From Methylophilaceae bacterium (GTDB taxonomy: Bacteria; Pseudomonadota; Gammaproteobacteria; Burkholderiales; Methylophilaceae): a stretch of 40,185 bases of DNA. The stretch is taken from the NCBI GenBank assembly GCA_947451235.1, contig CANFZA010000012.1, positions 1 through 40,185 of the forward strand, read 5' to 3'. The translations under genes were made by a program, and so were the position numbers. The stretch's first letter is position 1. Each line of letters opens with the position of its first letter. This document shows, piece after piece, positions 1 through 39,157 of the stretch. The notes beneath the pieces are model-generated. The model saw nothing but the letters and a program-made list of their open reading frames with translations, ran no database searches and had not been told where the DNA came from.

Positions 1-191
1 ATCATCAAAAAAGCATGTGCATCGGTCTGCGGTATCGTCCATATAATTGCTGGGTATAAACCGCCATAGCGACCAGTTAGATCTGCTAACCACCATGCCA
101 TGGTTAATATAGACTGGACACCACCTCCCAAAAAGAACATGCGGTGTGGCGCTGATGAAAACTTATGAAAATTTTTTTGTAAATTAATCAT
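1..191 (-). CDS. nnrS: NnrS family membrane protein (N-terminal part, truncated by window edge)
   Basis: The reverse strand opens at an ATG at 191 and reads without a stop to the window edge, giving about 63 residues. The N-terminus has the NnrS signature of a short cytoplasmic lead with S-A-P-H-R, then F-F-L-G-G-G, then a hydrophobic helix containing A-W-W-L. NnrS is a polytopic haem- and copper-containing inner-membrane protein that relieves nitric oxide stress and is classically under NsrR or Nnr control. An AGGA lies about 12 bases before the ATG. It follows the upstream NnrS-related gene by 25 bases and is evidently the third gene of a DUF59/membrane protein/nnrS operon. The rest of the protein is outside the window, so the transmembrane count cannot be checked. 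Confidence 0.8.
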   Translation of the reverse strand, partial: MINLQKNFHKFSSAPHRMFFLGGGVQSILTMAWWLADLTGRYGGLYPAIIWTIPQTDAHAFLM

Positions 192-216
192 GTAGTTACG
201 ATTCCTAGTTCATACA

Positions 217-1332
217 TCATTTTATATTCTGACTTAATCGTTTGCCATTAATAACTGCGCTTATGGTGCTGAGCACAAATAACAATAGTGCAATGGCATT
301 TAGCGCGCCACCAAGGCTTCGCCCTTGCTGGTTTTGTAGTAAGTCTCCTGCAAGCCGTATTATTAAAGAAGCATGTAAGGCAATGAGTGGCAGATAAAAG
401 GTGGCGTGATAGGGAATTTTAACTTTTGCAATAGCTGGAAAAATAATGGGCGCGTGGCCAAATATCATGGAAAACACGAAGCCTATCAATATGCTATGTA
501 GAAAAGCGTCATAAGTTGAAGCGGGTATAAGTTGCTGTGCGCTTAGACCAACTATTGCGCCGATGAATAGCCAAATGTAGCCTGATACCATGCAAACAGC
601 AATAAACCTCGTTAGGCCTTTTTGTTTAAGTGTTTGGCGTGCCACATCGTGGCGTAATAACCAGATTGCTAAAGTTAGCAATGCCGCTGAAAGTATTTGT
701 ACATTTGGTAATTTCGATAGGGTGGTTAAAATTGCGCCAGTTATAAACAGGGTAATGATTGCTATAAATGTAACTTTACTATTTGAAGAGGGCGGTAAAA
801 ATCTAGATAGTTCTAGCCTTTCGCCTGCTATGGTTAACACTAGAAAACCTATCCACCATGGAACAATTTGCATGATGGATAATCCGCCCAACCAAAGTAA
901 ATTGCCAAGTAACCACGATAAGCTGCCAAGCAATAACGTAAAGGTGAATAGCGCCTGTTGACGCATGTAAATATGCATGGTGGCCATTAGTAGAATGCCG
1001 CTAGCGATTGCCATTAAAATAGCGCCGATAATCAATGGAAAACCGGCGATAAGACTTAAGCCACCCAACGCGGCAGAGAAAGGTCCGGCATAAGCCCAGC
1101 GCTGCGTAATTGCAACCGCGCGTTCTAAAGAAATCACTGTGCCTAAAAATCCACACACCATAATTGGGCCGTGTAGTCCTGCTAAATCTGCAATGATTTT
1201 GATGTTTGTAAAGGGCAATGAAAACCCCCAGCCTAAGCGTAACAAACCAACATTCACACCAATAGCCAAGCTGATGAATGCCGCTATTAGCATGGGTATA
1301 CGAAAGGGTACTGAGAGATTTTGTTTTTTCAT
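217..1332 (-). CDS. Polytopic membrane protein, NnrS-related, of the NO-response operon
   Basis: About 371 residues, almost entirely hydrophobic, with roughly 10-12 predicted membrane segments. Conserved-looking histidines lie in membrane segments: one in A-G-L-H-G-P near residue 55, and two in a C-terminal stretch of the type H-S-I-L-I-G-F ... G-H-A-P-I-I-F-P-A. These resemble the haem/copper-ligand histidines of NnrS and haem-copper oxidase-like membrane proteins, so a metal- or haem-binding role in NO handling is inferred. I chose the ATG at 1332 (M-K-K-Q-N-L) over an in-frame TTG five codons upstream. The gene lies 22 bases downstream of the DUF59 gene and 25 upstream of nnrS, so one transcript is likely. 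No biochemical function is established from sequence alone. Confidence 0.7.
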   Translation of the reverse strand: MKKQNLSVPFRIPMLIAAFISLAIGVNVGLLRLGWGFSLPFTNIKIIADLAGLHGPIMVCGFLGTVISLERAVAITQRWAYAGPFSAALGGLSLIAGFPLIIGAILMAIASGILLMATMHIYMRQQALFTFTLLLGSLSWLLGNLLWLGGLSIMQIVPWWIGFLVLTIAGERLELSRFLPPSSNSKVTFIAIITLFITGAILTTLSKLPNVQILSAALLTLAIWLLRHDVARQTLKQKGLTRFIAVCMVSGYIWLFIGAIVGLSAQQLIPASTYDAFLHSILIGFVFSMIFGHAPIIFPAIAKVKIPYHATFYLPLIALHASLIIRLAGDLLQNQQGRSLGGALNAIALLLFVLSTISAVINGKRLSQNIK

Positions 1333-2634: not shown

Positions 2635-5600
2635 ATGAAAATAAATATTATTAACAAAGCCGAAGCAATGTCACCTGCACACCCACGTACTGTGGGTTGG
2701 TTTGGAACTACTTCAGTGGCTATGGGCGGTATCAACCAAAGTCTATTTTTGCTTGGTGCACTTTTTGTCGGTCAAGGGGCCATTCCTGGTCAAGGTAGCG
2801 CAGCAGTAGTGTTATTGGGTGTTGGTCTACTTTTAAGTTGGATGGCCACACCAGGTTGGGTCGAATTAATTTTAATGTACCCGAATAGAGTGGGCGGCAT
2901 TGCTGCAACCTGCGCTGAAGCATTCCGCCCATATAGTCCGGTACTCGCTAATCTCACCGGCGTTTGTTATTGGTGGGGCTGGGTACCTACTTGCGGGCTA
3001 ACGGCCTTACTTGCATCTTCTGCTCTTAATCAATGGTATTTACCTTCCATTCCGGTACCTTTGCTTGCAACCAGCATCGTGCTATTTTTTACTTTTATCA
3101 ATCTGTGCGGCGTTAAGTGGGTCATGCGGTTAGCTATGCCAATCGCCTCGCTATCTGCAATACTGGCGTTTGCTTCTGCTACGATTCCTGTTTTTAGTGG
3201 CAGTGTAGATTGGCAACAAGCTTTCACATTTCATCTTAATGTGCCGTTTGAAGGTCACTTTGGTCAGTTAACCAGCATCATGGCTGGTTTGTATTTGATC
3301 GGCTTTGCCGCGCCTGCTTTTGAACAAGCGGCATGCCACGTGGGTGAGACCATTAACCCAAATAAAAATGTACCACGTGCGATGTTTGTCAGTGCGGCGC
3401 TCGCCTCACTCTATTTTATTGTGTTGCCTATAGTTTGGCTTGGAGCGCTAGGGCCTGAGCCGCTAGGTAGAGAGCTTGCGCTTGAGCTTGGACCAACTTT
3501 TGCACCATTGTTAGGTGGCGCAGCAAAGGCCGCTGCCATCTGGTTTATGATGTTCAATATGCTACATGGCACAATCGCACCATTAGCAGGTGCCTCTCGT
3601 ACTTTGGCTCAGTTGTCTGAAGATGGTTTACTACCAGAGTCACTTGCCAAGCGGTCTAGCACCGATGCGCCCTGGGTCGCCACATTGCTCACGGCTGCTA
3701 TGTCTATCATATTCTTATACATTGGCGATCCAATCTGGCTGATAGCGGCAGCTAATCTTACTTATTTAATTGGCATTGCTATGCCTAGCGTAGCCGTATG
3801 GCTTTTGCGACGTAATGAACCATATAAAACAAGGCCTTACCGTGCGCCGCGCGGAACAATCATGCTAGGTGTCTTGGCGGCCTTCATTTGGCTTTTGACC
3901 GTAGTGCTTGGTTTTCAACAGTTTGGGCTACCCACAGTATTGGTTGGCATTGTGTTCGCTTATTCAGGCGCAGCATTATATGCTTGGCGAAAATTTTCTG
4001 ATCGTCGAAAAATGGGGTTGCCTGGCATTGCCAAGACTTTGCACTTAAAACTGACTGGCGCAATGTTGTTGGTGTTAGCCCTTGATTCTGCTGGCTATTT
4101 GCTCGCAGTTGACCAAGTCTCGTTAAAAAATCCTGCATTGATCGCGATGCTGCAAGACATCTTTGTGGCTGTTGCGTTGCTGACGATTGCGGTAGGCCTA
4201 ATATTACCCGGCATGATTGCCCACTCAGCTGTCCAAGTTTCTAACGCGGCAGAAAAGTTAGTAGCAGGCACGCTTGCTGATTTTACTCGCGCCATGCAAG
4301 CCTTGGCTGCTGGAGATCTTGATGCGGCAAAGGCGAGGCTAGAATTTATTCCAGTGAAAGTGTATTCACATGATGAAGTAGGGGATATGGCGCACAATTT
4401 CAACCGACTTCAGGAAGAAATTGGCCGTGCGGCAGGGGGGTTAGATGGTGCCCGTGAAGGCTTGTTGCAGTCACGCACATCATTAACTGAAACCAATGTC
4501 AGTCTTAAAATTGCTTTAAATGTGGCTGCTAATGCATTGAAAGAACTGGAAAGTCAAAAATATGCTCTGGATGAACACTCCATTGTGGGCGTTACTGACA
4601 TCGAAGGCCGCATTACTTACGCTAATGATAGATTTTGTGCAATTTCAAAATACTCACGCGAAGAATTGCTAGGGCAAGATCATCGTATTTTAAATTCCAA
4701 ACATCACACAAAAGAATTCTTTTCAGATTTATGGAATACTATTTCCAGCGGCTTAGTTTGGCGTGGAGAGGTTAAGAATCGCGCTAAAGATGGCACTTTT
4801 TATTGGGTAAGTAGTACCGTGGTGCCGTTTCTAAACGCTAATGGTAACCCCATTCAATATATTGCAATTCGTACCGACATTACTGATAGAAAACTCGCTG
4901 AATTAAAATTAGCTGAACAAAGCCAACAATTACAATCGGTATTCGATTTAAGTCCAGATGGTTTAATTTTGACAGATCAGCATGCTAACGTGGTCTTGGT
5001 TAATCCTGCGTTGTGTCAAATCGCTGGGCTTAGGTCTGATGAGGTTTTGTTTAATTCAGTTGACGTGGTTTGGCATAAATTAGCGCAACTTACTGAAAAT
5101 CCTACAATTAAACTGCTGGGAGATGAACAGCTATTTAGACTAGAACTGCAACGACCACGTAAACGCGTTTTAAAGTGCCAAATTATTAACGTTCATGATA
5201 AAGAAAATTTAAGCGCGCTTAAATTATACTTTTTTAGAGACATTACCCGTGACGATGAAGTTGATCAAATGAAGAGCCAATTTGTTGCCACAGCAGCGCA
5301 TGAGTTGCGAACGCCGCTTACAAGTGTGTTGGGTTATTCTGAGCTACTCATGAACGATATGATCCCACAACAAATGCGAGGCGGCGCTTTTGAAATCATT
5401 ATCGATAAAACCAAGTTGTTGATTAATATTATTAATGAGATGCTTGATTTAGAGCGTATGGAATCACGCAATGGCTTAGATTTTAATATCACTACTTTTA
5501 TGGCCGATTTTCTGGTTGAAACCACCGTTATAACTTATCCAACACCCCCTAATCGCAATCCAATCATTGTGGACGTCATGGCAAACGTATGCGTGAATGT

Positions 5601-5958
5601 AGATGAGGATAAATTCAAATCTGTACTTACAAATGTGTTGGATAACGCTTACAAATACTCGACAACAGGTGATGTTAAGCTAGAAATTATTAAAGAAGAT
5701 GTAAATGGCATTATGAGCGTCGGTTTTCGTGTGCATGATTCAGGCATAGGTATGAGTGATGAGCATAGACTTTTGGTTTTTGATAGATTTTGGCGTGCCG
5801 ATGAATCCGGCAATATTCCTGGAACGGGTTTGGGTCTTGCGATAGTTAAAGAAGTCATGCGAGTTTTAGGTGGTAGTGTTGTTATTACTAGTACATTAGG
5901 TTTAGGATCAATTGTAACTTTATGGCTTCCTCTTGCACATGAGTATGGTGCGCAATAG
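2635..5958 (+). CDS. APC-family amino-acid transporter fused to HAMP-PAS-PAS sensor histidine kinase
   Basis: 1,107 residues. Residues about 20-445 form an APC-superfamily permease of about 12 membrane helices. Family signatures include F-E-Q-A-A-C-H-V-G-E-T-I-N-P-N and S-R-T-L-A-Q-L-S-E-D-G-L-L-P. Two further helices (about 470-535) lead into a HAMP-like linker (540-600) and short coiled coil, then PAS/PAC 1 (about 645-755) and PAS 2 (765-870). A HisKA domain follows with the phospho-acceptor His889 in A-A-H-E-L-R-T-P. The HATPase domain has its N box at Asn1004, G1 D-S-G-I-G at 1035-1039 and G2 G-T-G-L-G-L at 1063-1068. All catalytic boxes are intact. CbrA is a known precedent for a transporter-kinase fusion but uses an SSS-family symporter. 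Amino-acid or amine sensing through the permease is inferred. There is no adjacent response regulator, so it is an orphan kinase. The start could also be Met at 2668 (M-S-P-A-H-P). Confidence 0.88.
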   Translation: MKINIINKAEAMSPAHPRTVGWFGTTSVAMGGINQSLFLLGALFVGQGAIPGQGSAAVVLLGVGLLLSWMATPGWVELILMYPNRVGGIAATCAEAFRPYSPVLANLTGVCYWWGWVPTCGLTALLASSALNQWYLPSIPVPLLATSIVLFFTFINLCGVKWVMRLAMPIASLSAILAFASATIPVFSGSVDWQQAFTFHLNVPFEGHFGQLTSIMAGLYLIGFAAPAFEQAACHVGETINPNKNVPRAMFVSAALASLYFIVLPIVWLGALGPEPLGRELALELGPTFAPLLGGAAKAAAIWFMMFNMLHGTIAPLAGASRTLAQLSEDGLLPESLAKRSSTDAPWVATLLTAAMSIIFLYIGDPIWLIAAANLTYLIGIAMPSVAVWLLRRNEPYKTRPYRAPRGTIMLGVLAAFIWLLTVVLGFQQFGLPTVLVGIVFAYSGAALYAWRKFSDRRKMGLPGIAKTLHLKLTGAMLLVLALDSAGYLLAVDQVSLKNPALIAMLQDIFVAVALLTIAVGLILPGMIAHSAVQVSNAAEKLVAGTLADFTRAMQALAAGDLDAAKARLEFIPVKVYSHDEVGDMAHNFNRLQEEIGRAAGGLDGAREGLLQSRTSLTETNVSLKIALNVAANALKELESQKYALDEHSIVGVTDIEGRITYANDRFCAISKYSREELLGQDHRILNSKHHTKEFFSDLWNTISSGLVWRGEVKNRAKDGTFYWVSSTVVPFLNANGNPIQYIAIRTDITDRKLAELKLAEQSQQLQSVFDLSPDGLILTDQHANVVLVNPALCQIAGLRSDEVLFNSVDVVWHKLAQLTENPTIKLLGDEQLFRLELQRPRKRVLKCQIINVHDKENLSALKLYFFRDITRDDEVDQMKSQFVATAAHELRTPLTSVLGYSELLMNDMIPQQMRGGAFEIIIDKTKLLINIINEMLDLERMESRNGLDFNITTFMADFLVETTVITYPTPPNRNPIIVDVMANVCVNVDEDKFKSVLTNVLDNAYKYSTTGDVKLEIIKEDVNGIMSVGFRVHDSGIGMSDEHRLLVFDRFWRADESGNIPGTGLGLAIVKEVMRVLGGSVVITSTLGLGSIVTLWLPLAHEYGAQ

Positions 5959-6634: not shown

Positions 6635-7693
6635 ATGCAATTAACAAGTTTAGCCATTAATTTGGCAGAAAAAGGCCTGGTGCCAGATAGCTTAATCCGT
6701 AAAGGGATTCGTGATTTATCGCAGGCTCGCTTGAATGAGATTTCCGCTAATAATTGCGAAATTGGCGCGAAAATTGAGACTGACTTTATCGCTAGCATGA
6801 ATAAATCGCCTATCGCATTAGTGCCAGAATTAGCCAATGCGCAACACTATGAAGTGCCGGCTAAGTTCTTTCAACTTTGCTTAGGCCAACATCGTAAATA
6901 TAGTAGTTGTTTTTGGCTACCAGACACCAAAAATCTAGATGATGCTGAAGCGAATGCCTTACAACTGAGCTGTGATCACGCTGATTTAAAAGATGGACAA
7001 CAGATTTTAGAACTAGGTTGTGGTTGGGGTTCTTTGACTTTATGGATGGCCGCGCATTACCCTAACAGCCAAATTACTGCTGTTTCAAACTCAAATTCAC
7101 AAAGAGAATATATTAATAGTGCCGCTAAAGAGCGTAATTTAAGCAATATTAATGTGATTACCTGCGACATGAATAATTTTGATGCGAGCGCCCTACCATC
7201 TCAGCCAAAATTTGACCGTGTTGTGTCGGTTGAAATGTTTGAACACATGCGTAATCATCAATTGTTATATGGAAAAGTGCACGATTGGTTAGTGCCAGGC
7301 GGTAAATTCTTCATGCACATTTTCGTACATCGTTCAACGCCTTATGCGTTTGAAGTGCAAGGTGATGACGATTGGATGAGTCAGTTTTTCTTTTCAGGCG
7401 GCATGATGCCCAGCGATGACTTACCATTACGTTTTCAGCAAAAACTGAAACTGACGCAGCGTTGGCGCTGGGATGGCACGCATTACGAAAAAACTGCTAA
7501 TGCGTGGCTAGTAAATATGGACCGAGAAGAAGCGGCAATTACTGAGATTTTAGCCGCCACTTACGGCGCCGGTGAGGTGACTAAATGGCGTAACCGCTGG
7601 CGCATTTTCTATATGGCTTGTGCTGAATTATTTGGCTATAAAAATGGTCAGGAGTGGTGGGTAACGCATTATCAATTTGAACGGCCTCTTTAG
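6635..7693 (+). CDS. CFA-family SAM-dependent methyltransferase (first paralogue)
   Basis: 352 residues of the cyclopropane-fatty-acid synthase superfamily. SAM motif I is L-E-L-G-C-G-W-G-S-L-T-L-W near residues 126-138, followed by V-S-V-E-M-F-E-H-M, the acidic motif of this superfamily. It lacks the longer N-terminal domain of classical Cfa and resembles the coclaurine-N-methyltransferase-like branch. The substrate is probably an unsaturated phospholipid acyl chain, by analogy with methyltransferases in ECF-regulated lipid clusters, but this is inference. AAAAGG ends about 6 bases before the ATG. It is the first intact gene of the plus-strand cluster and lies directly after the anti-sigma remnant. 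Confidence 0.8.
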   Translation: MQLTSLAINLAEKGLVPDSLIRKGIRDLSQARLNEISANNCEIGAKIETDFIASMNKSPIALVPELANAQHYEVPAKFFQLCLGQHRKYSSCFWLPDTKNLDDAEANALQLSCDHADLKDGQQILELGCGWGSLTLWMAAHYPNSQITAVSNSNSQREYINSAAKERNLSNINVITCDMNNFDASALPSQPKFDRVVSVEMFEHMRNHQLLYGKVHDWLVPGGKFFMHIFVHRSTPYAFEVQGDDDWMSQFFFSGGMMPSDDLPLRFQQKLKLTQRWRWDGTHYEKTANAWLVNMDREEAAITEILAATYGAGEVTKWRNRWRIFYMACAELFGYKNGQEWWVTHYQFERPL

Positions 7694-7772
7694 GCAACTT
7701 GCTTGTTTAGTTTATAAACATAATTTCAATTTCAAGTTTAAACTCAACATTAAATTAAAGCCCAGTTCATTG

Positions 7773-8300
7773 ATGATACTCAATTTCATATTATTCCAAG
7801 TCGCATGGTTTGCTTGCGTCGCAGGCGCAGCTGCAGGCAAGCCTTTTTTAGGTGTTGTAGTCACTTTTTTTGTGTTGCTTTGGCATTTATACCAAGCAAA
7901 GCAATGCAAAATAGAACTGAAATTGATATTGTCAGTCTTAATTACTGGTGCGATTTTTGATCAAATGATGTTGTCATTTCATTTTATTGAATATACACAT
8001 CATGGCTGGGGTAATTCAGTAGTGCCAGTTTGGATTCTTGCACTTTGGCTTGGGTTTGCGACAACACTTAATGTGAGTTTAGCTTGGATGCAGGGTAAAA
8101 CTATTGTCGCTGTTTTGTTTGGCGCTGTAGGTGGCCCGCTCGCTTATTTAGGTGCGCAAAAATTAGGAGCCGTGGTGTTGCCTAGCTTCACTAGTTATAT
8201 TGTACTTTCTATTGGTTGGGCAGTTTTAACGCCTTGTTTCCTTATTATTGCGCGTCACTTTAATGGCTATCAGAATAGCTCTCAGGAAAGTAAACCATGA
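7773..8300 (+). CDS. DUF2878 family membrane protein
   Basis: About 175 residues from the ATG at 7773, with five to six hydrophobic helices. It starts L-N-F-I-L-F-Q-V-A-W-F-A-C-V, the usual opening of DUF2878 proteins. An in-frame ATG at 7677 would add 32 polar residues and overlap the methyltransferase, so I prefer the shorter form. The family has no assigned biochemical activity but recurs beside CFA-type methyltransferases, DUF1295 and DUF1365 genes. Its stop overlaps the next start in an ATGA, so the two are translationally coupled. Confidence 0.75.
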   Translation: MILNFILFQVAWFACVAGAAAGKPFLGVVVTFFVLLWHLYQAKQCKIELKLILSVLITGAIFDQMMLSFHFIEYTHHGWGNSVVPVWILALWLGFATTLNVSLAWMQGKTIVAVLFGAVGGPLAYLGAQKLGAVVLPSFTSYIVLSIGWAVLTPCFLIIARHFNGYQNSSQESKP

Positions 8301-9067
8301 TAGATTGGCAAATTTTTACTTCTGGTTTAATGGCTATTGCCGTATTTGCCTTGTTTGGCTGGCTTATTAGTCTAGTTCGCAATAATGTAACGCATGTAGA
8401 TAGTATGTGGAGCTTGTTTTTAGCCATTGGCGCTTATGCATATTTCTTTAATTTCCATGATACCTCCCCAAGATCAAGCTTAATTTTAACTTTAGTCAGC
8501 ATTTGGGCCATTAGATTATGTGTTTATTTAACCTGGCGTAACTGGAACCCACATGAAGATCATCGCTATGCGGCTATACGAAAAAATAATCAGCCCAACT
8601 TTTGGTTAAGCAGCATTTATATTGTTTTTGGCCTGCAAGCGGTATTGGCTTGGATTATCTCCGCACCATTATTTGGCGCAATGGTGTCTAAGCAAGCCAT
8701 TAATTTTATTGATGTTATTGGGATTTTATTGTTTACTTTTGGTTTTTTGTGGGAAACCTTAGCAGACATGCAGTTAGCCAAATTTAAAGCGCAGTTATCC
8801 AATAAAGGAAAAGTGTTAAATACCGGCTTGTGGCGCTTCAGCCGCCACCCAAACTATTTTGGCGAATGCTGTGTTTGGTGGGGATTTTACTTAATTGCTT
8901 TTGCTGGTGGCGCTTGGTGGACCATTATTTCTCCTATTTTAATGACATTACTTTTGTTGAAAATAAGCGGCGTAGCTTTATTAGAAAAAGACATTGCTGA
9001 ACGCAGACCTACTTATGCCGATTACATCAAAAATACTAATGCTTTTGTACCTGGTCCACCTAAATAA
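8297..9067 (+). CDS. DUF1295 family (steroid 5-alpha-reductase-like) membrane enzyme
   Basis: 256 residues with about six membrane helices. The C-terminal motif L-W-R-F-S-R-H-P-N-Y-F-G-E (about residues 178-190) is the diagnostic NADPH/SAM-site motif of the steroid 5-alpha-reductase/ICMT superfamily. The acidic/tyrosine tail R-P-T-Y-A-D-Y is also present. It probably reduces or modifies an isoprenoid or acyl chain at the membrane, but the substrate is unknown. Its start overlaps the DUF2878 stop by four bases. Confidence 0.85.
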   Translation: MIDWQIFTSGLMAIAVFALFGWLISLVRNNVTHVDSMWSLFLAIGAYAYFFNFHDTSPRSSLILTLVSIWAIRLCVYLTWRNWNPHEDHRYAAIRKNNQPNFWLSSIYIVFGLQAVLAWIISAPLFGAMVSKQAINFIDVIGILLFTFGFLWETLADMQLAKFKAQLSNKGKVLNTGLWRFSRHPNYFGECCVWWGFYLIAFAGGAWWTIISPILMTLLLLKISGVALLEKDIAERRPTYADYIKNTNAFVPGPPK

Positions 9068-9133
9068 CATCCCAAATAAACATCTATACCGACTTTAATC
9101 ACGTATGTATGTGAATTGGAGGAATATGAAAAC

Positions 9134-9766
9134 ATGAAAGCTATACAAACGGCAGTTTTAGTCACCTTAATATCGAGTACACCGCTTGCACTTGCGAAAG
9201 ACTGGGACTTTGATGTTTATTTAGACAACGCAAAGATTGGTCGGCATCAGTTTAATTTAAGTGATGCAAATGTATTAACCAGTACCGCAAAATTTAACGT
9301 TAAGGTTTTGTTTATTAACGCTTATCAGTATGATCACAAAGCCGTAGAAACCTGGCAAGATGGTTGTTTAAATAGCCTTGAGGCACGCACCACTGAAAAC
9401 AAGATTGTTACTGATGTGAGTGGAAATTTAGTTGAGCCCAATTTTTTGGTGGGTAATGGTAAGGCCAGTTACAAGTTGCCCGCGTGCAGTATGACGTTTG
9501 CGTACTGGAACCCTAAAATATTGAGCCAAGATAAATTGTTGAATCCACAAAATGCGGAATGGCTATCAACTAAAGTGTCAAAACTTAATAACCAAACCAT
9601 AGCGGTTAAGGGTAGGAATATTGAGACCAGCCACTACAAGCTAGACGGTGCATTAGACGGGAAAAATAAGCTGAAAATTGAGCTGTGGTACAACGCCAAT
9701 AATGACTGGGTTGCGCTGAAATCAATCACACCTGAAGGCTATACCATTAATTACAAATTACGTTAG
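9134..9766 (+). CDS. Periplasmic DUF6134-type protein
   Basis: 210 residues from the ATG at 9134. GGAGG at 9118-9122 makes this start convincing over an in-frame TTG at 9116. A signal peptide with cleavage after A-L-A is predicted near residue 21. The mature protein begins D-W-D-F-D-V-Y-L-D and is beta-rich, with Y-Q-Y-D-H-K-A-V-E-T-W and two cysteines that could pair. This matches my recollection of the DUF6134 family found in oxidative-stress lipid clusters. Ligand and activity are unknown. The lipocalin gene follows 11 bases later, so the two probably work together in the envelope. Confidence 0.65.
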   Translation: MKAIQTAVLVTLISSTPLALAKDWDFDVYLDNAKIGRHQFNLSDANVLTSTAKFNVKVLFINAYQYDHKAVETWQDGCLNSLEARTTENKIVTDVSGNLVEPNFLVGNGKASYKLPACSMTFAYWNPKILSQDKLLNPQNAEWLSTKVSKLNNQTIAVKGRNIETSHYKLDGALDGKNKLKIELWYNANNDWVALKSITPEGYTINYKLR

Positions 9767-9777
9767 GTCACACCACT

Positions 9778-10332
9778 ATGCCACTTAAATTACTTAAAAG
9801 ATTATTCCTTATGACCATACTCGCTAGCATTTTATCTGCTTGCTCAACCACAAATTTACCGTCTATTGCCACGGTGCCTCAAGTGAATTTACCAAAATTC
9901 ATGGGCAGTTGGTATGTGATTGCTGCTATTCCGACCGCTATTGAAACCGAATCTTTCAACGCTGTAGAAACTTATAGTTTAGACAAAGATGGCTCTATTG
10001 CCACGACCTTTACTTATAACAAAGGTAGTTTGGATGGTAAATTAAAAACTTATCAACCACGTGGATTTGTCATGCCGAATAGTGGAAATGCTTTATGGGG
10101 CATGCAATTTATTTGGCCTATTAAAGCTGAGTACCGCATTGTTTATCTTAACGAAGATTACAGCCAAACTGTCATCGCTCGTAATGCCAGAGATTATGTT
10201 TGGATTATGGCGCGTACACCCACTATTAGTGATGCTGAATATAACAATTTAACGCAATTCGTTAAAGAAATTGGCTATGATATTAGTCAGTTACGCAAAG
10301 TACCGCACAACCACATTGATAATAAACCGTAA
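9778..10332 (+). CDS. blc: Outer-membrane lipocalin (Blc-like lipoprotein)
   Basis: 184 residues. The N-terminus is a lipoprotein signal ending in the lipobox L-S-A-C with Cys22 as the lipidated residue. Position +2 is Ser, which predicts sorting to the outer membrane. The lipocalin motif is M-G-S-W-Y-V-I-A near residues 41-48, and the second conserved block is Y-R-I-V-Y-L-N-E-D-Y-S. Bacterial lipocalins bind fatty acids or lysophospholipids and are linked to membrane stress. The position between the DUF6134 gene and a desaturase fits transport or storage of modified lipids. Confidence 0.85.
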   Translation: MPLKLLKRLFLMTILASILSACSTTNLPSIATVPQVNLPKFMGSWYVIAAIPTAIETESFNAVETYSLDKDGSIATTFTYNKGSLDGKLKTYQPRGFVMPNSGNALWGMQFIWPIKAEYRIVYLNEDYSQTVIARNARDYVWIMARTPTISDAEYNNLTQFVKEIGYDISQLRKVPHNHIDNKP

Positions 10333-10392
10333 TAATTGAGCCCAATAATCGATAGAATCTAACGCAATATTTACGGTAAATTTATACATATT

Positions 10393-11331
10393 ATGTTAAA
10401 AAAACTGATTAAATGGTTTGATAATAGCAAGGTTGAAATCGACAGCAGCCCTGAAACTGCCAGCGTTAACTGGCATCAAATCGATTGGGTGCGGGTCATT
10501 CCATTCGTGCTATTACATCTAGCCTGCCTTGGTGTTATTTGGGTTGGTATTAGCTGGTTTGCGGTTATTTTTGCAAGTTTGCTTTATTTAGTCAGAATGT
10601 TTGCCATCACTGGTTTTTATCATCGCTATTTTTCCCATAAAACTTACCGTACTTCAAGGTTATTCCAGTTTGTATTAGCCGTGTTCGGCGCTTCTGCGGT
10701 ACAACGCGGCCCACTTTGGTGGGCTTCTCACCACAGACATCATCACGTAAATTCTGATGAAGCTGACGATTCCCATTCACCAATACAACACGGTTTTTTA
10801 TGGAGTCATTTAGGCTGGTTCTTATCGGATAAAAACTTTTCTACCCGTACAGAACGCGTGAAAGAGTTGGCTAAATTCGTCGAGCTTAGAGTGCTAGACC
10901 GTTTTGACATTATTGTGCCGATTTTGTTGGCTTTTGGTATTTATTTGTTTGGCCTTTGGTTGGAAATTGAGGTTCCAAGCTTAGGCACTAATGGTTTGCA
11001 ATTACTGGTATGGGGGTTTTTCATCTCTACTGTGGTTCTTTATCACGCAACTTTTACTGTTAATTCGCTAGCGCATGTTTGGGGTAATCGCCGCTATGCC
11101 ACAACTGACCACAGCCGAAATAATGTATGGATTGCCTTACTCACTTTAGGTGAAGGTTGGCATAACAACCACCATCATTACCCGGGTTCTGCGAGCCAAG
11201 GTTTTTATTGGTGGGAAGTCGATTTCACCTATTACGGCTTAAAATTACTCTCAGCCTGCGGCTTGATATGGGATTTGCGTACTGTTCCTACCAGTATTCG
11301 TGAATCTAGAAAAATCGTAAACATTAAATAG
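10393..11331 (+). CDS. Membrane fatty acyl desaturase (delta-9 type)
   Basis: 312 residues with the three histidine boxes of the di-iron acyl-CoA/acyl-lipid desaturase family: H-R-Y-F-S-H near residue 77, H-H-R-H-H-H near 115, and H-N-N-H-H-H near 258. Hydrophobic helix pairs lie between boxes 1 and 2 and between 2 and 3. It would introduce a double bond that could serve as substrate for the neighbouring CFA-type methyltransferases. The gap to the lipocalin is 60 bases with no obvious terminator. I leave out a gene symbol because substrate type cannot be told. Confidence 0.88.
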   Translation: MLKKLIKWFDNSKVEIDSSPETASVNWHQIDWVRVIPFVLLHLACLGVIWVGISWFAVIFASLLYLVRMFAITGFYHRYFSHKTYRTSRLFQFVLAVFGASAVQRGPLWWASHHRHHHVNSDEADDSHSPIQHGFLWSHLGWFLSDKNFSTRTERVKELAKFVELRVLDRFDIIVPILLAFGIYLFGLWLEIEVPSLGTNGLQLLVWGFFISTVVLYHATFTVNSLAHVWGNRRYATTDHSRNNVWIALLTLGEGWHNNHHHYPGSASQGFYWWEVDFTYYGLKLLSACGLIWDLRTVPTSIRESRKIVNIK

Positions 11332-33454: not shown

Positions 33455-34354
33455 ATGTGGTTTAAAAACATCATCATTTATCGCCTATCAGCAGATAGCG
33501 CAATTACCGCCGATAAGCTCAATGAAAAATTAGCGCTTAAACCCTTGCTAGCCTGTAGTGGCCTAGATAAGCAAAGCCGAGGCTGGGTAGCTTGCCACGG
33601 CGAAAAAATAGTACACGGTGCGAATCAGCAAATTTTATTTGCACTAGGTGTAGAACAAAAATTACTACCTGCTACTATTATTAACCGCTTTACAAAAGAA
33701 CGCGTAGCAGACATAGAGGCGCAGCAAGGCTACAAAGTGGGTCGCAAAGAACTTAAAGAAATTAAAGAAGCGATGACTGAAGAGTTGCTACCAAGAGCAT
33801 TTGCGCTACAACGAAAAACCTTTGCTTGGATAGATCCCGTGCGCGGATACTTGGTGATTGATGCCGCTTCATCTGCTAAAACAGAAGAGCTGCTATTGTT
33901 ACTTAACAAAACGGTAGACGACCTGCAATATAAACCACTACACACGAATACTTCACCCGTTGCCGCCATGACAGACTGGCTTGCTGGCAATAATGCGCCG
34001 ACTGGTTTCACCATAGATCGTGAACTTGAACTACGTGCGACGGGTGAAAGCAAAGCCACTATTCGTTATGCCAACCATGCTTTAGAAGGTGAAGAGATTT
34101 TGGCGCACATTGCCGCGGGCAAGCGTGTTACCCGCTTGGGCCTGACTTGGAACGATAGAATTTCCTTTGTGCTAACGGAGCAAATGCAAATTAAACGCCT
34201 TGAGTTCTTAGACATTATCAAGCAAGAATCTACCACCATTGCAGAAGATGCCGACGAGCTGTTTGAACTAGATTTCACATTAATGACTGGGGAGTTAGCT
34301 AGAATGCTGGCTGATTTAACTGAGGCACTAGGTGGTGAAGTGGTTATTGCTTAA
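33455..34354 (+). CDS. rdgC: Recombination-associated protein RdgC
   Basis: 299 residues, the family's length. It starts M-W-F-K-N-I-I-I-Y-R-L as in E. coli RdgC, and G-R-K-E-L-K-E-I-K-E near residue 96 is conserved. RdgC forms a ring around DNA and limits RecA activity. A TATAAT at 33424-33429 gives a -10, without a clear -35. Its stop overlaps the stop of the convergent hybrid kinase gene by four bases. Confidence 0.95.
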   Translation: MWFKNIIIYRLSADSAITADKLNEKLALKPLLACSGLDKQSRGWVACHGEKIVHGANQQILFALGVEQKLLPATIINRFTKERVADIEAQQGYKVGRKELKEIKEAMTEELLPRAFALQRKTFAWIDPVRGYLVIDAASSAKTEELLLLLNKTVDDLQYKPLHTNTSPVAAMTDWLAGNNAPTGFTIDRELELRATGESKATIRYANHALEGEEILAHIAAGKRVTRLGLTWNDRISFVLTEQMQIKRLEFLDIIKQESTTIAEDADELFELDFTLMTGELARMLADLTEALGGEVVIA

Positions 34355-36867
34355 TAGCGACTAGTTGTTTCGAAAGCAACGTTAAGCGTATCCACCAGCT
34401 CACCCACTTTCACTGGTTTGGTAATATAGCGAAAGAAGCCCGCTTTTAGGCCTTTTTCAATATCCATCGGCATCGCATTGGCACTCAGTGCGATGACTGG
34501 AATATGCGCTGTGGTAGCATCTGCGCGTAAGATATTTAATGCCTGTAAGCCATTAATACCGGGTAGATTAATATCCATCAGAATCACATCAGGCAATGCT
34601 GTTCTGGCAATCTCAACGCCACTCAGGCCATTCACTGCAGTTAACAGTTTAATATCCGGATAACGCGCGATAATGGTTTGTACCAGTTTCATGTTGGCAG
34701 GATTATCTTCCACATAAAGCAAGGTTTTTAAAGCACCTTCACGAGACGCTGGTTGCTTAGAAATAGCCTGAATCTGTTTGTTTTTCAGCACCTTGCGCGG
34801 TTCAGCCACTGCCATCAGTTCAAACCAAAAGATACTACCCACGCCAACGATGCTTTCTACGCCCATCGTACCGCCCATTAATTCAACTAAGCGTTTAGCC
34901 ACCACCAGCCCAATACCGGTGCCTTCTTCGCCGCCCGCTTCTTGTCCTAGCCGATTAAACGGCTGAAACAGTTGGGCCAATTGCTCTGCAGATAAACCCG
35001 CACCGGTATCTTTAAACGATACACGAATGCGTCCAGTGGTTCTTTCGGTAAATTTAATATCGACTGTGCCTTTGATGGAGTTATATTTAATCGCATTGGA
35101 TAACAGATTAATCATAATCTGCTTCACTCTAGTTCGATCAGCCGACACGAAGGTTGGCATATCGTATTCAGGAAAATTAATGGTAATACCGCGTAACAAC
35201 GCTTGTGGTTCTATCATGCCTTGGCATTCAAGCATAATGCTGGAGATGGAAATAGGCTCTAACTGCAGAGGTACTTGCCTAGATTCAATTTTAGCCAAAT
35301 CAAGAATTTCATTAATCAAGGTCAATAAATGCCAACCAGCCTGAAGGATCTGCGCGATACTTTCCTCTTGAAGTGGTGTTGGCGGCAGTGCATCGGTTTC
35401 CATTAACTGCGCAAAGCCTAAAATAGCATTTAATGGCGAGCGCAATTCGTGACTCATGCTAGACAAGAAGTCAGACTTTGCTAAATTGGCTTCATCTGCC
35501 ACAAATCTGGCGTTCTCCAACTCAACGTTTTTCTCCTGCAATACCTGATCAAGTCTTTTATATTCACTAATATCGGTATGGGCGATGACTGCCCCACTAA
35601 TCACGCCTTGCCCTAGAGGCAATACGCTCATGGTGTACCAGCGTTGTTGGGTTTTGGTGTGGCAGGGATATTCCATGCTAAAGCTGGAGAGGTTGCCGTC
35701 AAGAACAGAGCGGATGCCGCTATACGCATTTGATTCAGAGGGAAATGTACTATTAACAGCGTTACAAAAGGCCAGATAATTTAACCCAACTTTATTGCTT
35801 TCTAGCGGTTCGTTGCGATTGCTGTTGTTAGACGAAAATCGCTGCCATGGCACATTAACTTCCCTGATGATACCCTCTTGATCAATCACAGCAATTTCAG
35901 CGGCTAGAGAGTTAAGAATTGCTTTTTTAAATACTGCATTATCTCTCAAGACTTCCTCATCTTTTTTACGTGCGGTATTATCTGTACCAATTAGTAAATA
36001 GCCGATGATATTTTCGTGATCATCACGTAGTGCTGTGACTGAAACTACGGCAGGAAAACGGCTACCATCTTTTCGAATATAAGTGAGTTCGTAAATATCC
36101 TCAATGCCGCGTGAGGCTTTAAACACCAAAGCATCAAAGCCGGGGTCAATTTGCGTGGCTAACTCCACCGTTAAAGCTTCTGCACGCGCTACAACTTCGT
36201 TAGAGTCAGAAATATCCGCTGGTGTGATTTTATTCATCACCTCGGTGGCTGTATAACCCAACATGCGCTCTGCGCCGACATTAAATATTTGGATGACGCC
36301 TTTGGCATCGGTGGCAATAATTGAGAAGTTAGCGCTACTGAAAATTGCGCTTTGTAATGCGCCTGCTTTAAGTAACGCTTCTTCGGCCTTTTTACGTGCA
36401 GTATTATCGGTACCGATTAACAAATAGCCAATAATGCTTTCGTCTTCATCGCGTAACGCTGTTACAGATACGACTGCAGGAAAACGGCTACCATCTTTAC
36501 GAATGTAGGTTAGCTCGTAAATGTCTTCAATACCACGTGACGATTTAAACACCAAGGCATCAAACCCCGGCTCAATCTGCGTACCTAGCTCAAGGGTTAA
36601 GGCTTCAGAGCGGGCCACAACTTCATTTGAATCTGAAATGTCTGCCGGCGTTATCTTGTTCACTAACTCTTCGGCGGTGTAGCCAAGCATGTGCTCTGCG
36701 CCAACATTAAATATTTGAATCACACCTTTAGCATCGGTTGCAATAATTGAAAAGTTGGCACTATTGAAAATAGCACGCTGTAAAGGGTCGGACCTAATTA
36801 ATGTTTGTAGGCGCTTATTTTCATCATTAATGTTAATTACGGATAATTTATTACTGGTATCAGGCAT
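34351..36867 (-). CDS. Cytosolic hybrid histidine kinase (PAS-PAS-PAS-HisKA-HATPase-REC)
   Basis: 838 residues with no membrane helix. PAS 1 (about 28-160) and PAS 2 (about 170-302) are near-identical, offset by 142 residues. A third, different PAS (about 312-440) and a coiled coil follow. HisKA has His473 in S-M-S-H-E-L-R-S-P. The HATPase has N-L-L-S-N-A-I-K-Y, D-T-G-A-G-L and G-T-G-I-G-L. The C-terminal receiver has the acidic E-D-N pair region, Asp765 in L-M-D-I-N-L-P-G and the T-K-P-V lysine. The signal is probably a cytosolic ligand or redox state. The gene is adjacent to three more signalling genes. Its final stop overlaps rdgC. Confidence 0.93.
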   Translation of the reverse strand: MPDTSNKLSVININDENKRLQTLIRSDPLQRAIFNSANFSIIATDAKGVIQIFNVGAEHMLGYTAEELVNKITPADISDSNEVVARSEALTLELGTQIEPGFDALVFKSSRGIEDIYELTYIRKDGSRFPAVVSVTALRDEDESIIGYLLIGTDNTARKKAEEALLKAGALQSAIFSSANFSIIATDAKGVIQIFNVGAERMLGYTATEVMNKITPADISDSNEVVARAEALTVELATQIDPGFDALVFKASRGIEDIYELTYIRKDGSRFPAVVSVTALRDDHENIIGYLLIGTDNTARKKDEEVLRDNAVFKKAILNSLAAEIAVIDQEGIIREVNVPWQRFSSNNSNRNEPLESNKVGLNYLAFCNAVNSTFPSESNAYSGIRSVLDGNLSSFSMEYPCHTKTQQRWYTMSVLPLGQGVISGAVIAHTDISEYKRLDQVLQEKNVELENARFVADEANLAKSDFLSSMSHELRSPLNAILGFAQLMETDALPPTPLQEESIAQILQAGWHLLTLINEILDLAKIESRQVPLQLEPISISSIMLECQGMIEPQALLRGITINFPEYDMPTFVSADRTRVKQIMINLLSNAIKYNSIKGTVDIKFTERTTGRIRVSFKDTGAGLSAEQLAQLFQPFNRLGQEAGGEEGTGIGLVVAKRLVELMGGTMGVESIVGVGSIFWFELMAVAEPRKVLKNKQIQAISKQPASREGALKTLLYVEDNPANMKLVQTIIARYPDIKLLTAVNGLSGVEIARTALPDVILMDINLPGINGLQALNILRADATTAHIPVIALSANAMPMDIEKGLKAGFFRYITKPVKVGELVDTLNVAFETTSRY

Positions 36868-37026: not shown

Positions 37027-37629
37027 CTACTTATATTTTTTTCTTAGCGCTAACAATCCCACATAGTTTTCTAAATGCATGAGTGAAATCGGTTTTTCAA
37101 ACACCTCTATATTTAGATTCGTGCCTACATAATCTATTAATAGACTAGCTGGCATTGAGGTGAATGCAGCAATCTCAATGCTGTTAAATTCTTGGTTATT
37201 TTTCATGTATTTAATCAAGCCAATACAATCAACATCCTCTTTTTCCACATCTACAATAAGTAAATCGGGCTTATTCCTACTTAAGCTGACAATCCCATCA
37301 AATGCATTTGGCATTAGCTCTACTTTTACTTTATTTAAAGCCCATGAAAAGTAGTTTTGTATCAAATTAAATGGCGTTACTTGGTCTTTTATATAAAGAA
37401 TATTGAATTCAGCATTACTAATAAATCGTTGCATTTCAATTGAAATTTGTCGTTTTTCTATAATTTGATTCACCGAACTCAGGCTTATTTTTCTATGCCC
37501 ACCTGGAGTTTTCCATGCTTTTAAAACGCCAGACTCAACCCATAACTGCACTGTTCTTTGTGATACGCCCAGCATTTCTGAGGCTTCTCGTGTAGAGCAA
37601 ATGTTGCTTAAAGCGTCATGCTTCTTCAT
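37027..37629 (-). CDS. MerR/excisionase-type HTH regulator with partly degenerate receiver domain
   Basis: 200 residues from the ATG at 37629, which follows AGGAAAATA; an upstream start at 37665 is less likely. Residues about 10-60 are a MerR-like HTH (S-T-R-E-A-S-E-M-L-G-V-S-Q-R-T-V-Q-L-W, then T-P-G-G-H-R-K-I). Residues about 78-195 look like a receiver fold. It keeps the Asp (L-L-I-V-D-V), a Thr (A-F-T-S) and the Lys (E-K-P-I), but the first acidic pair is changed to K-D. It may act as a phosphorylation-linked or phosphorylation-independent transcription factor for the neighbouring hybrid kinase or c-di-GMP genes. Confidence 0.75.
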   Translation of the reverse strand: MKKHDALSNICSTREASEMLGVSQRTVQLWVESGVLKAWKTPGGHRKISLSSVNQIIEKRQISIEMQRFISNAEFNILYIKDQVTPFNLIQNYFSWALNKVKVELMPNAFDGIVSLSRNKPDLLIVDVEKEDVDCIGLIKYMKNNQEFNSIEIAAFTSMPASLLIDYVGTNLNIEVFEKPISLMHLENYVGLLALRKKYK

Positions 37630-37934
37630 TATTTTCCTTATACCTGTGATTTTTTCTAATTGCATTCTTTTTTCTCACAATCATTCTTTTACTAGACATT
37701 AAATGCATTATATGCGAAATATAAACAATAAGTGAAATAAATGTAATATTGTCAATAATATCTAATTTTTTATGATATTATGCAAATATCGAAAGTAATG
37801 AAATATTCAGAAATAATATTGGCATAAATGTTAGTAGTTAGTAAGTGTTGTTTATTGGGGTTGCTGGAATTTTGGTCGCTAAAACTGCATTCATTAAATT
37901 TAGCCATATTCATCAAAATGCTTGAAGGATAGTA

Positions 37935-38342
37935 ATGATAAAAAAAATATTAGTGATTGATGATCATTCGGATGTCAGGTTATTGATAAAGCTTGCACTG
38001 AAATTTGATAACTATGAAATACATGAAGCTTTTGATGCGCAACTGGGCTTAAAAATGGTACATGCCGTTAAGCCAGATTTGATATTGCTGGATGTGAATA
38101 TGCCTTTAAGAATGGAAGTCTCGACGAAGGGCGTTTTGAATGGTCTTGATCTTTGCCGTTGGCTTAAATCTGATGCTGAACTTTCAAAAATACCCGTCAT
38201 ATTCTTGTCATCCGAAGCTTATCCTGAAGATATTAAAGCCGGGATGGATGTTGGTGCTGATGAATATATAACTAAGCCGTTTAGCTTAATTAATTTAATT
38301 GAAGTTATAGCAAAGACACTATCTAAAAGGGCGATGGCATGA
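37935..38342 (+). CDS. Single-domain response regulator
   Basis: 135 residues, one CheY-like receiver. It has Asp9-Asp10, phospho-acceptor Asp53 in L-L-D-V-N-M-P, Ser/Thr in F-L-S-S-E and Lys in I-T-K-P-F. About 9 extra residues follow the phosphorylation loop (V-S-T-K-G-V-L-N-G) compared with typical receivers. AAGGA is 5 bases upstream. A -35/-10 candidate TTGTCA-16-TATGAT lies in the gap near 37750. The end overlaps the HD-GYP gene in ATGA, so the two form an operon. Confidence 0.9.
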   Translation: MIKKILVIDDHSDVRLLIKLALKFDNYEIHEAFDAQLGLKMVHAVKPDLILLDVNMPLRMEVSTKGVLNGLDLCRWLKSDAELSKIPVIFLSSEAYPEDIKAGMDVGADEYITKPFSLINLIEVIAKTLSKRAMA

Positions 38343-39157
38343 CGCAATCAATTACTAATAGCGTATTAAAACTCACACCGGAATTTGGCTTTAGTGACCA
38401 CAGTATGGCATTCAATCAGATGCTTAAAATCACAGAAGACATTCAAAGTGAGCGTGTTGGACGATCTGAAGCTTTATTAGCCGCTAATAAAGCCCATCAT
38501 GAAGTTTTAATACGTCTTGCTTTAGCAGCTGAATACCGAGATAACGATACTGGATCGCACATTATTAGGCTTGGGTATATGGCCGAAAAATTAAGTGCTT
38601 TGCTTGGCGAGTCTGAGGTTTTTTGTTTCTTGATTCGGCTTGCTGCACCTATGCACGACGTTGGGAAAATAGGTGTTCCAGACTCTCTGCTTAATGCTGC
38701 TGGCGAGAGTAATGCAGAAGATATACCTATGCTACAAGCACATGCTGAAATTGGTTATAAGATTTTAGCCAACTCTAATATCGCCTTATTTCAACTAGCG
38801 GCAACCATTGCACTTAACCACCATGAAAAGTTTAATGGTTCAGGTTACCCCAATAAATTGTTTGGTAAAAACATCCCACTTGCTGGCCGAATTGTCTCAA
38901 TTATTGATTGCTTTGATGCTTTAACTATGGATAGAAGTGATCGTAAAGCCTTCTCTGACAATGTAGCGGTTGAAATGATGCTAGACAAAAGGGGAAGTTA
39001 TTTTGATTCCGAAATACTGGATGTGTTTGTTGAGCACATTGACGAGTTTATTAATCTGCGAAATAAAATCAATTCGATAAAAATTGAATATGGCCAGTTA
39101 ATGAACTTCTCATTACATGAACTTATGCAGCCAACACCTTTGCAAACAAAAGTTTAA
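38339..39157 (+). CDS. HD-GYP c-di-GMP phosphodiesterase
   Basis: 272 residues. The HD pair is His106-Asp107 in M-H-D-V-G-K-I-G-V-P-D. The second motif H-H-E-K-F-N-G-S-G-Y-P (161-171) keeps the GYP triad, so hydrolysis of c-di-GMP is expected. It is split from the response regulator whose gene overlaps it; in many RpfG-like proteins the two domains are fused. It would be controlled in trans by phosphorylation of that regulator. The adhesin gene starts 26 bases later. Confidence 0.92.
   Translation: MTQSITNSVLKLTPEFGFSDHSMAFNQMLKITEDIQSERVGRSEALLAANKAHHEVLIRLALAAEYRDNDTGSHIIRLGYMAEKLSALLGESEVFCFLIRLAAPMHDVGKIGVPDSLLNAAGESNAEDIPMLQAHAEIGYKILANSNIALFQLAATIALNHHEKFNGSGYPNKLFGKNIPLAGRIVSIIDCFDALTMDRSDRKAFSDNVAVEMMLDKRGSYFDSEILDVFVEHIDEFINLRNKINSIKIEYGQLMNFSLHELMQPTPLQTKV

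Follow-up and report, generated by a model that had tools for sequence, protein, structure and literature searches.

In this window, the whole 40,185-nucleotide stretch of contig CANFZA010000012.1 from a Methylophilaceae bacterium (assembly GCA_947451235.1), a single gene joins a permease of the amino acid-polyamine-organocation (APC) superfamily to a histidine kinase (Table 1). The open reading frame is uninterrupted from an ATG at 2635 (or a TTG at 2632) to the stop at 5958, with 1107 codons before the stop when counted from the ATG; as the homology of relatives starts at about residue 16, Met12 is another possible true start. The Pfam domains AA_permease_2, HAMP, PAS_9, PAS_8, HisKA and HATPase_c all score above their curated cut-offs, AA_permease_2 (PF13520, residues 21-427) reaching 113 bits against a cut-off of 27 (E 2e-32). 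All kinase boxes were found, namely the H-box HELRTP (889-894), the N-box (1000-1005), G1 DSGIGM (1035-1040), the F-box (1049-1053) and G2 GTGLGL (1063-1068), which rules out a loss of kinase motifs. Judged by its domains and its H, N, G1 and G2 boxes the product is a HisKA-type histidine kinase. This bears out an earlier note, made from the sequence alone, which had described an APC permease and a complete HAMP-PAS-PAS kinase in one reading frame.

The AlphaFold2 model of residues 1-638, built as a single chain from an alignment of 75 sequences, has a mean predicted local distance difference test of 91.3, a predicted TM-score of 0.87 and a LeuT-type fold in which transmembrane helices (TM) 1 and 6 are broken. 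In Foldseek the best structural matches are the APC transporters BasC (E 5e-13), LAT1 and AdiC, with TM-scores of 0.69-0.80 by target; among the 50 matches listed, those of the APC family have 14-20% identity and TM-scores, normalized by target, of 0.68-0.80. The canonical TM1 motif of amino-acid APC transporters is of the Gly-Ser-Gly type and forms the carboxylate site. The earlier note had called the permease intact, and this stands for the fold with its 12 helices and for the D-G-x-L-P motif of the TM8-loop stretch, but the TM1 break GGINQSLF departs from the canonical type. Beyond the fold, TM14 and the first HAMP helix form one unbroken helix in the model, running from the membrane into HAMP.

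Across 75 sequences of the sensor module, 81 positions are invariant. This alignment used 75 of 84 rows, leaving out four duplicate genes (L007=L042, L010=L065, L011=L068, L012=L094, also removed from the tree), the partial loci L043, L046, L075 and L115, and L112 with its long N-terminus. The invariant residues include Y112, W113, W114, G115, W116 and P118 in TM3, F224, A226-A228 and E230 in TM6, and G487, Y488, D508, F510 and L524-G526 in the coupling helices; N34 and Q35 in TM1 are kept in at least 90% of the relatives. Conservation at 97% or above is highest in TM3 (17 of 33 positions) and TM6 (14 of 26), followed by TM10 (10 of 28), TM13, TM2, TM14, TM8 and TM1. Few positions reach this level in TM4 (1 of 17), TM5 (2 of 29), TM7 (3 of 31) and TM9 (1 of 17).

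The fusion is conserved across genomes. One genome per species was scanned, and of 86 related loci the best 80 were kept; the match extends through HAMP in 77, and 73 of these have the module and a signalling output in one open frame, two of the frames (L040 and L050) opening at the edge of a contig, before the module. The APC-2TM-HAMP module of these relatives is 52-84% identical to that of the window. Of the seven other loci, three lie at contig ends (L043, L075, L114) and three are frame-broken (L046, L101, L115) with a short or split look, yet their signalling or module sequence goes on in another frame; L113, which is undecided, is cut in the middle of the permease, and, by eye, its DNA runs on with receiver-like sequence in a different frame. 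Cleanly unfused copies were sought among the best 80 loci, and there are none among the seven that lack an open fusion; nor were separate transporter and kinase genes, which the earlier note had named, for close relatives, as a result against its own reading, seen among the examined loci.

The carriers, mostly metagenome-assembled genomes (MAGs), are labelled as Verrucomicrobia, Proteobacteria, Actinobacteria, Omnitrophota, Myxococcales, Herpetosiphonaceae (Chloroflexi) and Dormiibacterota. Not marked as MAGs are Glaciimonas immobilis, Paraburkholderia kururiensis, Roseiarcus fermentans, Actinoplanes palleronii and Verrucomicrobia IMCC26134, and a plasmid of Paraburkholderia sp. PREW-6R encodes the module in a 1188-residue hybrid-kinase-like protein (outputs by eye). 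A false join of two genes during sequencing or assembly might be suspected in a host assembly of 174 contigs. We consider this ruled out, with a negligible residual probability, because 73 open fusions exist in other genomes, including strains not marked as MAGs (loci L052, L071, L090, L091 and L095), besides the plasmid.

The module is rare. Within the host's family it was found in 5 of 187 genomes, within the class in 3 of 369 (host counted in both), and among 387 sampled Verrucomicrobiota in 3, two of which were seeds (G150 and G152; 1 of 385 in the remainder). Among the matches listed it occurs in at least 7 of 150 genomes, host counted, and one of 148 records in the plasmid search reached at least 60% identity. 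In the 150-genome, Verrucomicrobiota and class scans the top three to five candidates per genome were scored. Two copies are present in the MAG AM_bin-1889 (L051 and L064, with HisKA_2 and HisKA outputs) and in genome G055 (contigs C40 and C73, frames of 1032 and 1159 residues).

Among the fused relatives the sensor is far better conserved than the output parts. In 20 representative C-termini scanned with Pfam, the outputs comprise HisKA, PAS- or GAF-HisKA, HisKA_2 and HisKA_3 kinases and a HATPase without a recognized dimerization and phosphotransfer (DHp) domain; hybrid kinases with one or two receivers or with receiver and Hpt; and the cyclic di-GMP (c-di-GMP) types GGDEF-EAL, PAS-GGDEF-EAL and GGDEF-HD-GYP. 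For 63 of the 84 rows the domain classes come from local hidden Markov models (HMMs) built on these 20, the window having been scanned with Pfam separately. The sensor-only tree (residues up to 532; 76 of 84 rows; LG+G4 rather than a mixture model) holds 32 hybrid kinases, 27 kinases and 17 c-di-GMP proteins, and the three classes require at least 16 changes on it. A single clade of the 17 c-di-GMP proteins is rejected (log-likelihood difference 233; approximately unbiased test, p 1e-47), and the starred branches alone force four changes of the c-di-GMP label; at the same time the labels are clustered, with none of 200 shuffles giving as low a count. The output has thus changed repeatedly, though not rampantly, gains and losses not being told apart; the c-di-GMP fusions are not one clade, and a single gain with later losses remains compatible.

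Some of these outputs show further regularities. In five of the six HisKA_2-type fusions (L044, L047, L050, L051, L069) a conserved protein of about 650-680 residues follows with an overlap of 4-23 bases; it starts with a receiver (by eye) and is a likely fixed partner. The fusions that have a HATPase and no recognized DHp (L008 and L056 by Pfam, L072 and L079 by local HMMs) possibly contain an undescribed DHp type.

In the host, the two halves of the gene appear to have different affinities. The nearest sensor, L042 of Methylotenera sp. U-2020, is 85% identical over residues 16-614, and its contig is also part of G028, which belongs to the genus of the host; the C-terminal halves, by comparison, share 31% over 227 residues, and L042 has no detected PAS domain. 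Among fused relatives 31% is also the best match of the kinase half, whereas it is 67% identical (752-936) to a Cache-PAS-HisKA kinase on contig C104 of its own genome, 52% (655-936) to a C117 protein with a receiver and, as read by eye, PAS and HisKA parts, both cut by contig ends, and 48% (752-1098) to a kinase of G048, another genome of the host's genus. As the kinase half is nearer to resident kinases than to fused relatives, the sensor was joined to a resident kinase family. The window and L042 sit within a set of 18 rows on the tree, 14 of them labelled Verrucomicrobia, and horizontal transfer, in one direction or the other, is likely.

A receiver gene directly beside the fused gene is lacking, as the earlier note had stated; its view of the output as unassigned is modified by a candidate pair near the other end of the window. 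There, the gene of a CheY-like receiver overlaps that of an HD-GYP protein, and no same-strand kinase adjoins. The C104 kinase belongs to a same-strand gene run that also encodes a CheY-like receiver and an HD-GYP protein, to which the in-window proteins are related (Table 1), and its DHp sequence is the same as that of the window from His889 to +17. On C104 these receiver and HD-GYP paralogues precede two kinases of the same strand. The C117 protein adjoins a receiver protein with GGDEF-EAL-like parts (by eye).

Elsewhere, 24 of 85 close same-strand neighbour genes of fused loci encode a receiver domain in a survey of 75 of the 77 loci. Three neighbour clusters recur in at least four loci; one consists of a REC-HD-GYP protein and the other two, as read by eye, of a receiver protein and a GAF-type protein, and in the same survey no metabolic gene recurs at that level. 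L042 has a receiver and a REC-HD-GYP protein downstream, L068 a REC-HD-GYP protein upstream. We infer that one of the receivers described here for the host is the partner of the fused kinase, with c-di-GMP turnover as the likely output. That the partner is specifically the in-window pair can be proposed only tentatively.

Table 1. Features of the fused gene and of the candidate response partners in the window.
Feature	Position (nt)	Residues	Strand	Basis or remark
Whole fused gene, APC-TM13/14-HAMP-PAS-PAS-HisKA-HATPase	2635-5958	1107 aa	+	Open reading frame, Pfam
APC permease fold, 12 TM helices	2695-4011	21-459	+	Pfam, AlphaFold2, Foldseek
TM1 break GGINQSLF, model helix broken at residue 34	2725-2748	31-38	+	Alignment, AlphaFold2
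TM3 aromatic motif CYWWGWVP	2965-2988	111-118	+	Alignment
TM6 break GFAAPAFE, model helix broken at residue 226	3301-3324	223-230	+	Alignment, AlphaFold2
TM8-loop motif GASRTLAQLSEDGLLP, holding DGLLP	3589-3636	319-334	+	Sequence
Two extra TM helices, TM13 and TM14	4039-4308	469-493, 500-558	+	AlphaFold2, invariant residues
HAMP domain	4273-4422	547-596	+	Pfam
Second HAMP helix prolonged as long signalling helix	4375-4545	581-637	+	AlphaFold2
PAS domain 1 (PAS_9)	4582-4887	650-751	+	Pfam
PAS domain 2 (PAS_8), matched part	4927-5046	765-804	+	Pfam
HisKA dimerization domain, phospho-acceptor His889	5269-5466	879-944	+	Pfam, motif reading
HATPase_c catalytic domain, N/G1/F/G2 boxes	5602-5937	990-1101	+	Pfam, motif reading
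CheY-like receiver, candidate partner	37935-38342	135 aa	+	54% identical to C104 receiver
HD-GYP protein, candidate downstream effector	38339-39157	272 aa	+	65% identical to C104 HD-GYP protein

Other genes of the window can be described briefly. The stretch that separates the receiver pair from the fused gene contains, on the minus strand, a PAS-rich hybrid histidine kinase (34351-36867; HATPase and receiver by local HMM) and a helix-turn-helix protein with a weakly receiver-like C-terminus (37027-37665; E 0.0007). Downstream of the fused gene, a run at 6635-11331 includes a CMAS (cyclopropane-fatty-acid-synthase-like) gene by Pfam and, by eye, membrane proteins and lipocalin-like and desaturase-like genes, and apparently has no relation to it. 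At 39184-40185 (plus strand) begins what looks like a long secreted protein of the filamentous-haemagglutinin type (by eye), cut by the end of the window.

For the ligand, the nearest transporter family is informative. In NCBIfam the module is closest to the trimethylamine N-oxide (TMAO) permease NF053774, with 130 bits and the next model at 73; true TMAO permeases from the host and from three plasmids reach 829-846 bits. A profile alignment of the module with four true members spans 456 columns, with 25% identity, and sets CYWWGWVP against CNWFAWSP in TM3 and FEQAACHVGE against FETAVCYTRE in TM6. Neither the module nor the TMAO permeases have the Gly-Ser-Gly motif in TM1, which points to an amine-like ligand lacking an alpha-carboxylate. 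The host itself has methylated-amine-type genes: on contig C81 a TMAO permease (L134, 846 bits) lies between two Oxidored_FMN proteins (Pfam), which we take to resemble trimethylamine and dimethylamine dehydrogenases. Genes for a globin-like protein and an EamA-like transporter (by eye) also lie between the two flavoprotein genes.

The permease occurs in 15 of 52 genomes of the host's genus, including both sensor carriers found there; elsewhere, 50 of the 80 loci were queried, and 3 of these 50 carriers have it. TMAO as the general ligand is unsupported by this co-occurrence, and the shared ligand is probably something wider. The methylated-amine ligand put forward in the earlier note is therefore plausible in this host, where permease and nearest family suit it, and is unsupported as a rule for the carriers. 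Many carrier records have sample names that appear to refer to lakes, peat or soil (Umea, Kiruna, Alinen, palsa, bog); this hints that the ligand might be a solute of humic water or soil.

Taken together, we consider the following account moderately probable. The first ~615 residues would constitute a discrete sensory module derived from an APC-superfamily transporter, which binds a small ligand from outside the cell, probably an amine or another solute that has no free alpha-amino-acid carboxylate, in a pocket formed by the TM1 and TM6 breaks and the aromatic TM3. Motion of the pocket could pass through TM13-TM14 along the continuous helix to HAMP, which would switch a presumably dimeric PAS-PAS-HisKA kinase; the module possibly still transports its ligand. 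The kinase half would have been taken in from a PAS-HisKA family resident in the Methylotenera-like host, and its most likely phosphorylation target would be a CheY-like receiver acting with an HD-GYP c-di-GMP phosphodiesterase. That the module is a general sensory domain, comparable to MASE or 7TMR, shuffled among histidine kinases, phosphorelay kinases of the hybrid and Hpt kinds, and c-di-GMP synthases and phosphodiesterases in seven phyla (as labelled in the records, three of them backed by cultured strains) and serving one shared ligand class, we regard as probable.

Several observations weigh against this account. The in-window receiver lies 32 kb from the fused gene in a genome with several other receivers, and seven places in that genome match an HD-GYP protein. 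With 130 bits against a cut-off of 690 the module is not a member of the TMAO permease family; the permease was not found in 47 of the 50 other carriers, many of which are incomplete MAGs, and its presence in both carriers of the genus, where 15 of 52 genomes have it, could be due to chance. TM1 is average in conservation (6 of 23 positions at 97% or above). Finally, the fold model consists of one chain, so the dimer and the coupling are outside its reach.

The view of the permease as a sensor or transceptor, already taken in the earlier note, gains support from the conserved fusion and from the occurrence of the same module before kinases and c-di-GMP enzymes. If it were a true transceptor, the module would import its substrate and the kinase would read the transport cycle, as proposed for CbrA, whose SLC5 domain reportedly works as a histidine transporter within a signalling protein (PMC13022988). 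The retained 12-TM fold and helix breaks and the high conservation of core helices are in line with this. Transport has been lost in Ks-Amt5, another transporter-kinase (PMC5764959), and the recurrent neighbours are signalling genes rather than metabolic ones; we consider a true transceptor not very likely. Conversely, the permease part could sense no solute at all, and dock another transporter or read membrane state or proton-motive force. The DctA-DcuS complex, mentioned in a 2024 paper (PMC11109136), offers a precedent of a transporter as partner of a sensor. However, conservation peaks in TM3, TM6 and TM10 and is low in TM4, TM5, TM7 and TM9, as ligand binding predicts; this argument is qualified by the two extra helices, which are also well conserved, and still leaves a solute-independent role quite improbable.

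Two further alternatives concern the identity of the ligand. A classical sensor of alpha-amino acids would fit the superfamily and the structural matches, as BasC, LAT1 and AdiC are amino-acid transporters, and GerAB is an APC-type receptor subunit for L-alanine (PMC8617281). With N34 and Q35 at the place of the Gly-Ser-Gly-type site, such a ligand seems unlikely. A sensor for methylated amines (trimethylamine, TMAO or dimethylamine) particular to methylotrophs can draw on the C81 permease, which is above the family cut-off and flanked by genes that we assume to be of the trimethylamine dehydrogenase type, on the nearest family and on the two carriers in the genus. Against it stand the sparse co-occurrence of the permease in other carriers, many possibly incomplete, and the core motifs, which are alike throughout and suggest one shared ligand class; moreover, many of the carrier groups are, to our knowledge, not known for methylotrophy. 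We therefore find a methylotroph-specific sensor rather improbable, and retain the APC-derived receptor with a wider ligand class.

If this reading is correct, the module is a reusable, transporter-derived sensory domain that recognizes one shared ligand class. One receptor combined with different output enzymes also provides a natural domain-swap series. The carrier strains not marked as MAGs make the ligand, and the choice between transporter and receptor, directly testable. In the titles and abstract openings of the open-access papers listed (at most 20 for each search), no fusion of an APC permease to a histidine kinase or GGDEF domain is announced, though a mention in subscription literature is possible; the word "permease" is absent from the main text of a review on c-di-GMP sensing (PMC8846402, word search).

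Several systems are comparable in part. CbrA, with its SLC5-STAC-PAS-kinase architecture, combines histidine uptake and signalling (PMC13022988), and the SLC5-STAC kinases CbrA, CrbS and RpuS share with the fused gene a layout in which a secondary-transporter domain and a PAS histidine kinase form a single chain. They have an SSS/SLC5 domain and a STAC coupler, and the fused gene has an APC domain, two extra TM helices and HAMP. Neither an SSF (SLC5) nor an ammonium-transporter domain matched the fused protein at E 0.001 among the ten families listed by Pfam; the Pfam scan gave no STAC match either, HAMP occupying that position, although whether Pfam holds a STAC model was not checked. The parallel with CbrA drawn in the earlier note is thus fair as a functional analogy and does not extend to the transporter domain; we class the fused protein as a transporter-derived sensor kinase, but not of the CbrA type. 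In Ks-Amt5 a transporter, for ammonium, has likewise become the sensor of a HisKA kinase within one fused protein; it has the Amt fold, is trimeric and has no HAMP, PAS or STAC and no remaining transport (PMC5764959).

The TMAO permease NF053774 (Methylocella silvestris type) has C-x-W-x-x-W-x-P in TM3 and FE-x-A-x-C in TM6 in common with the module, but the members examined are unfused and about 25% identical to it. In GerAB and yeast Ssy1 the APC transporter fold also serves as a receptor; these are subunits of complexes and carry no fused kinase or cyclase (GerAB, PMC8617281; Ssy1, PMC12958826). The 5TMR histidine kinases with an S-component fold have a transporter-like membrane sensor, found in kinases and chemotactic receptors, of a different fold; the 2024 paper calls them the first prokaryotic transceptor case and sets CbrA aside over its STAC domain (PMC11109136). 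The module family is a further transceptor candidate, with sequence-level kinship to real transporters, and through it the APC superfamily, a large transporter group, would join the short list of transporter folds wired into bacterial signalling.

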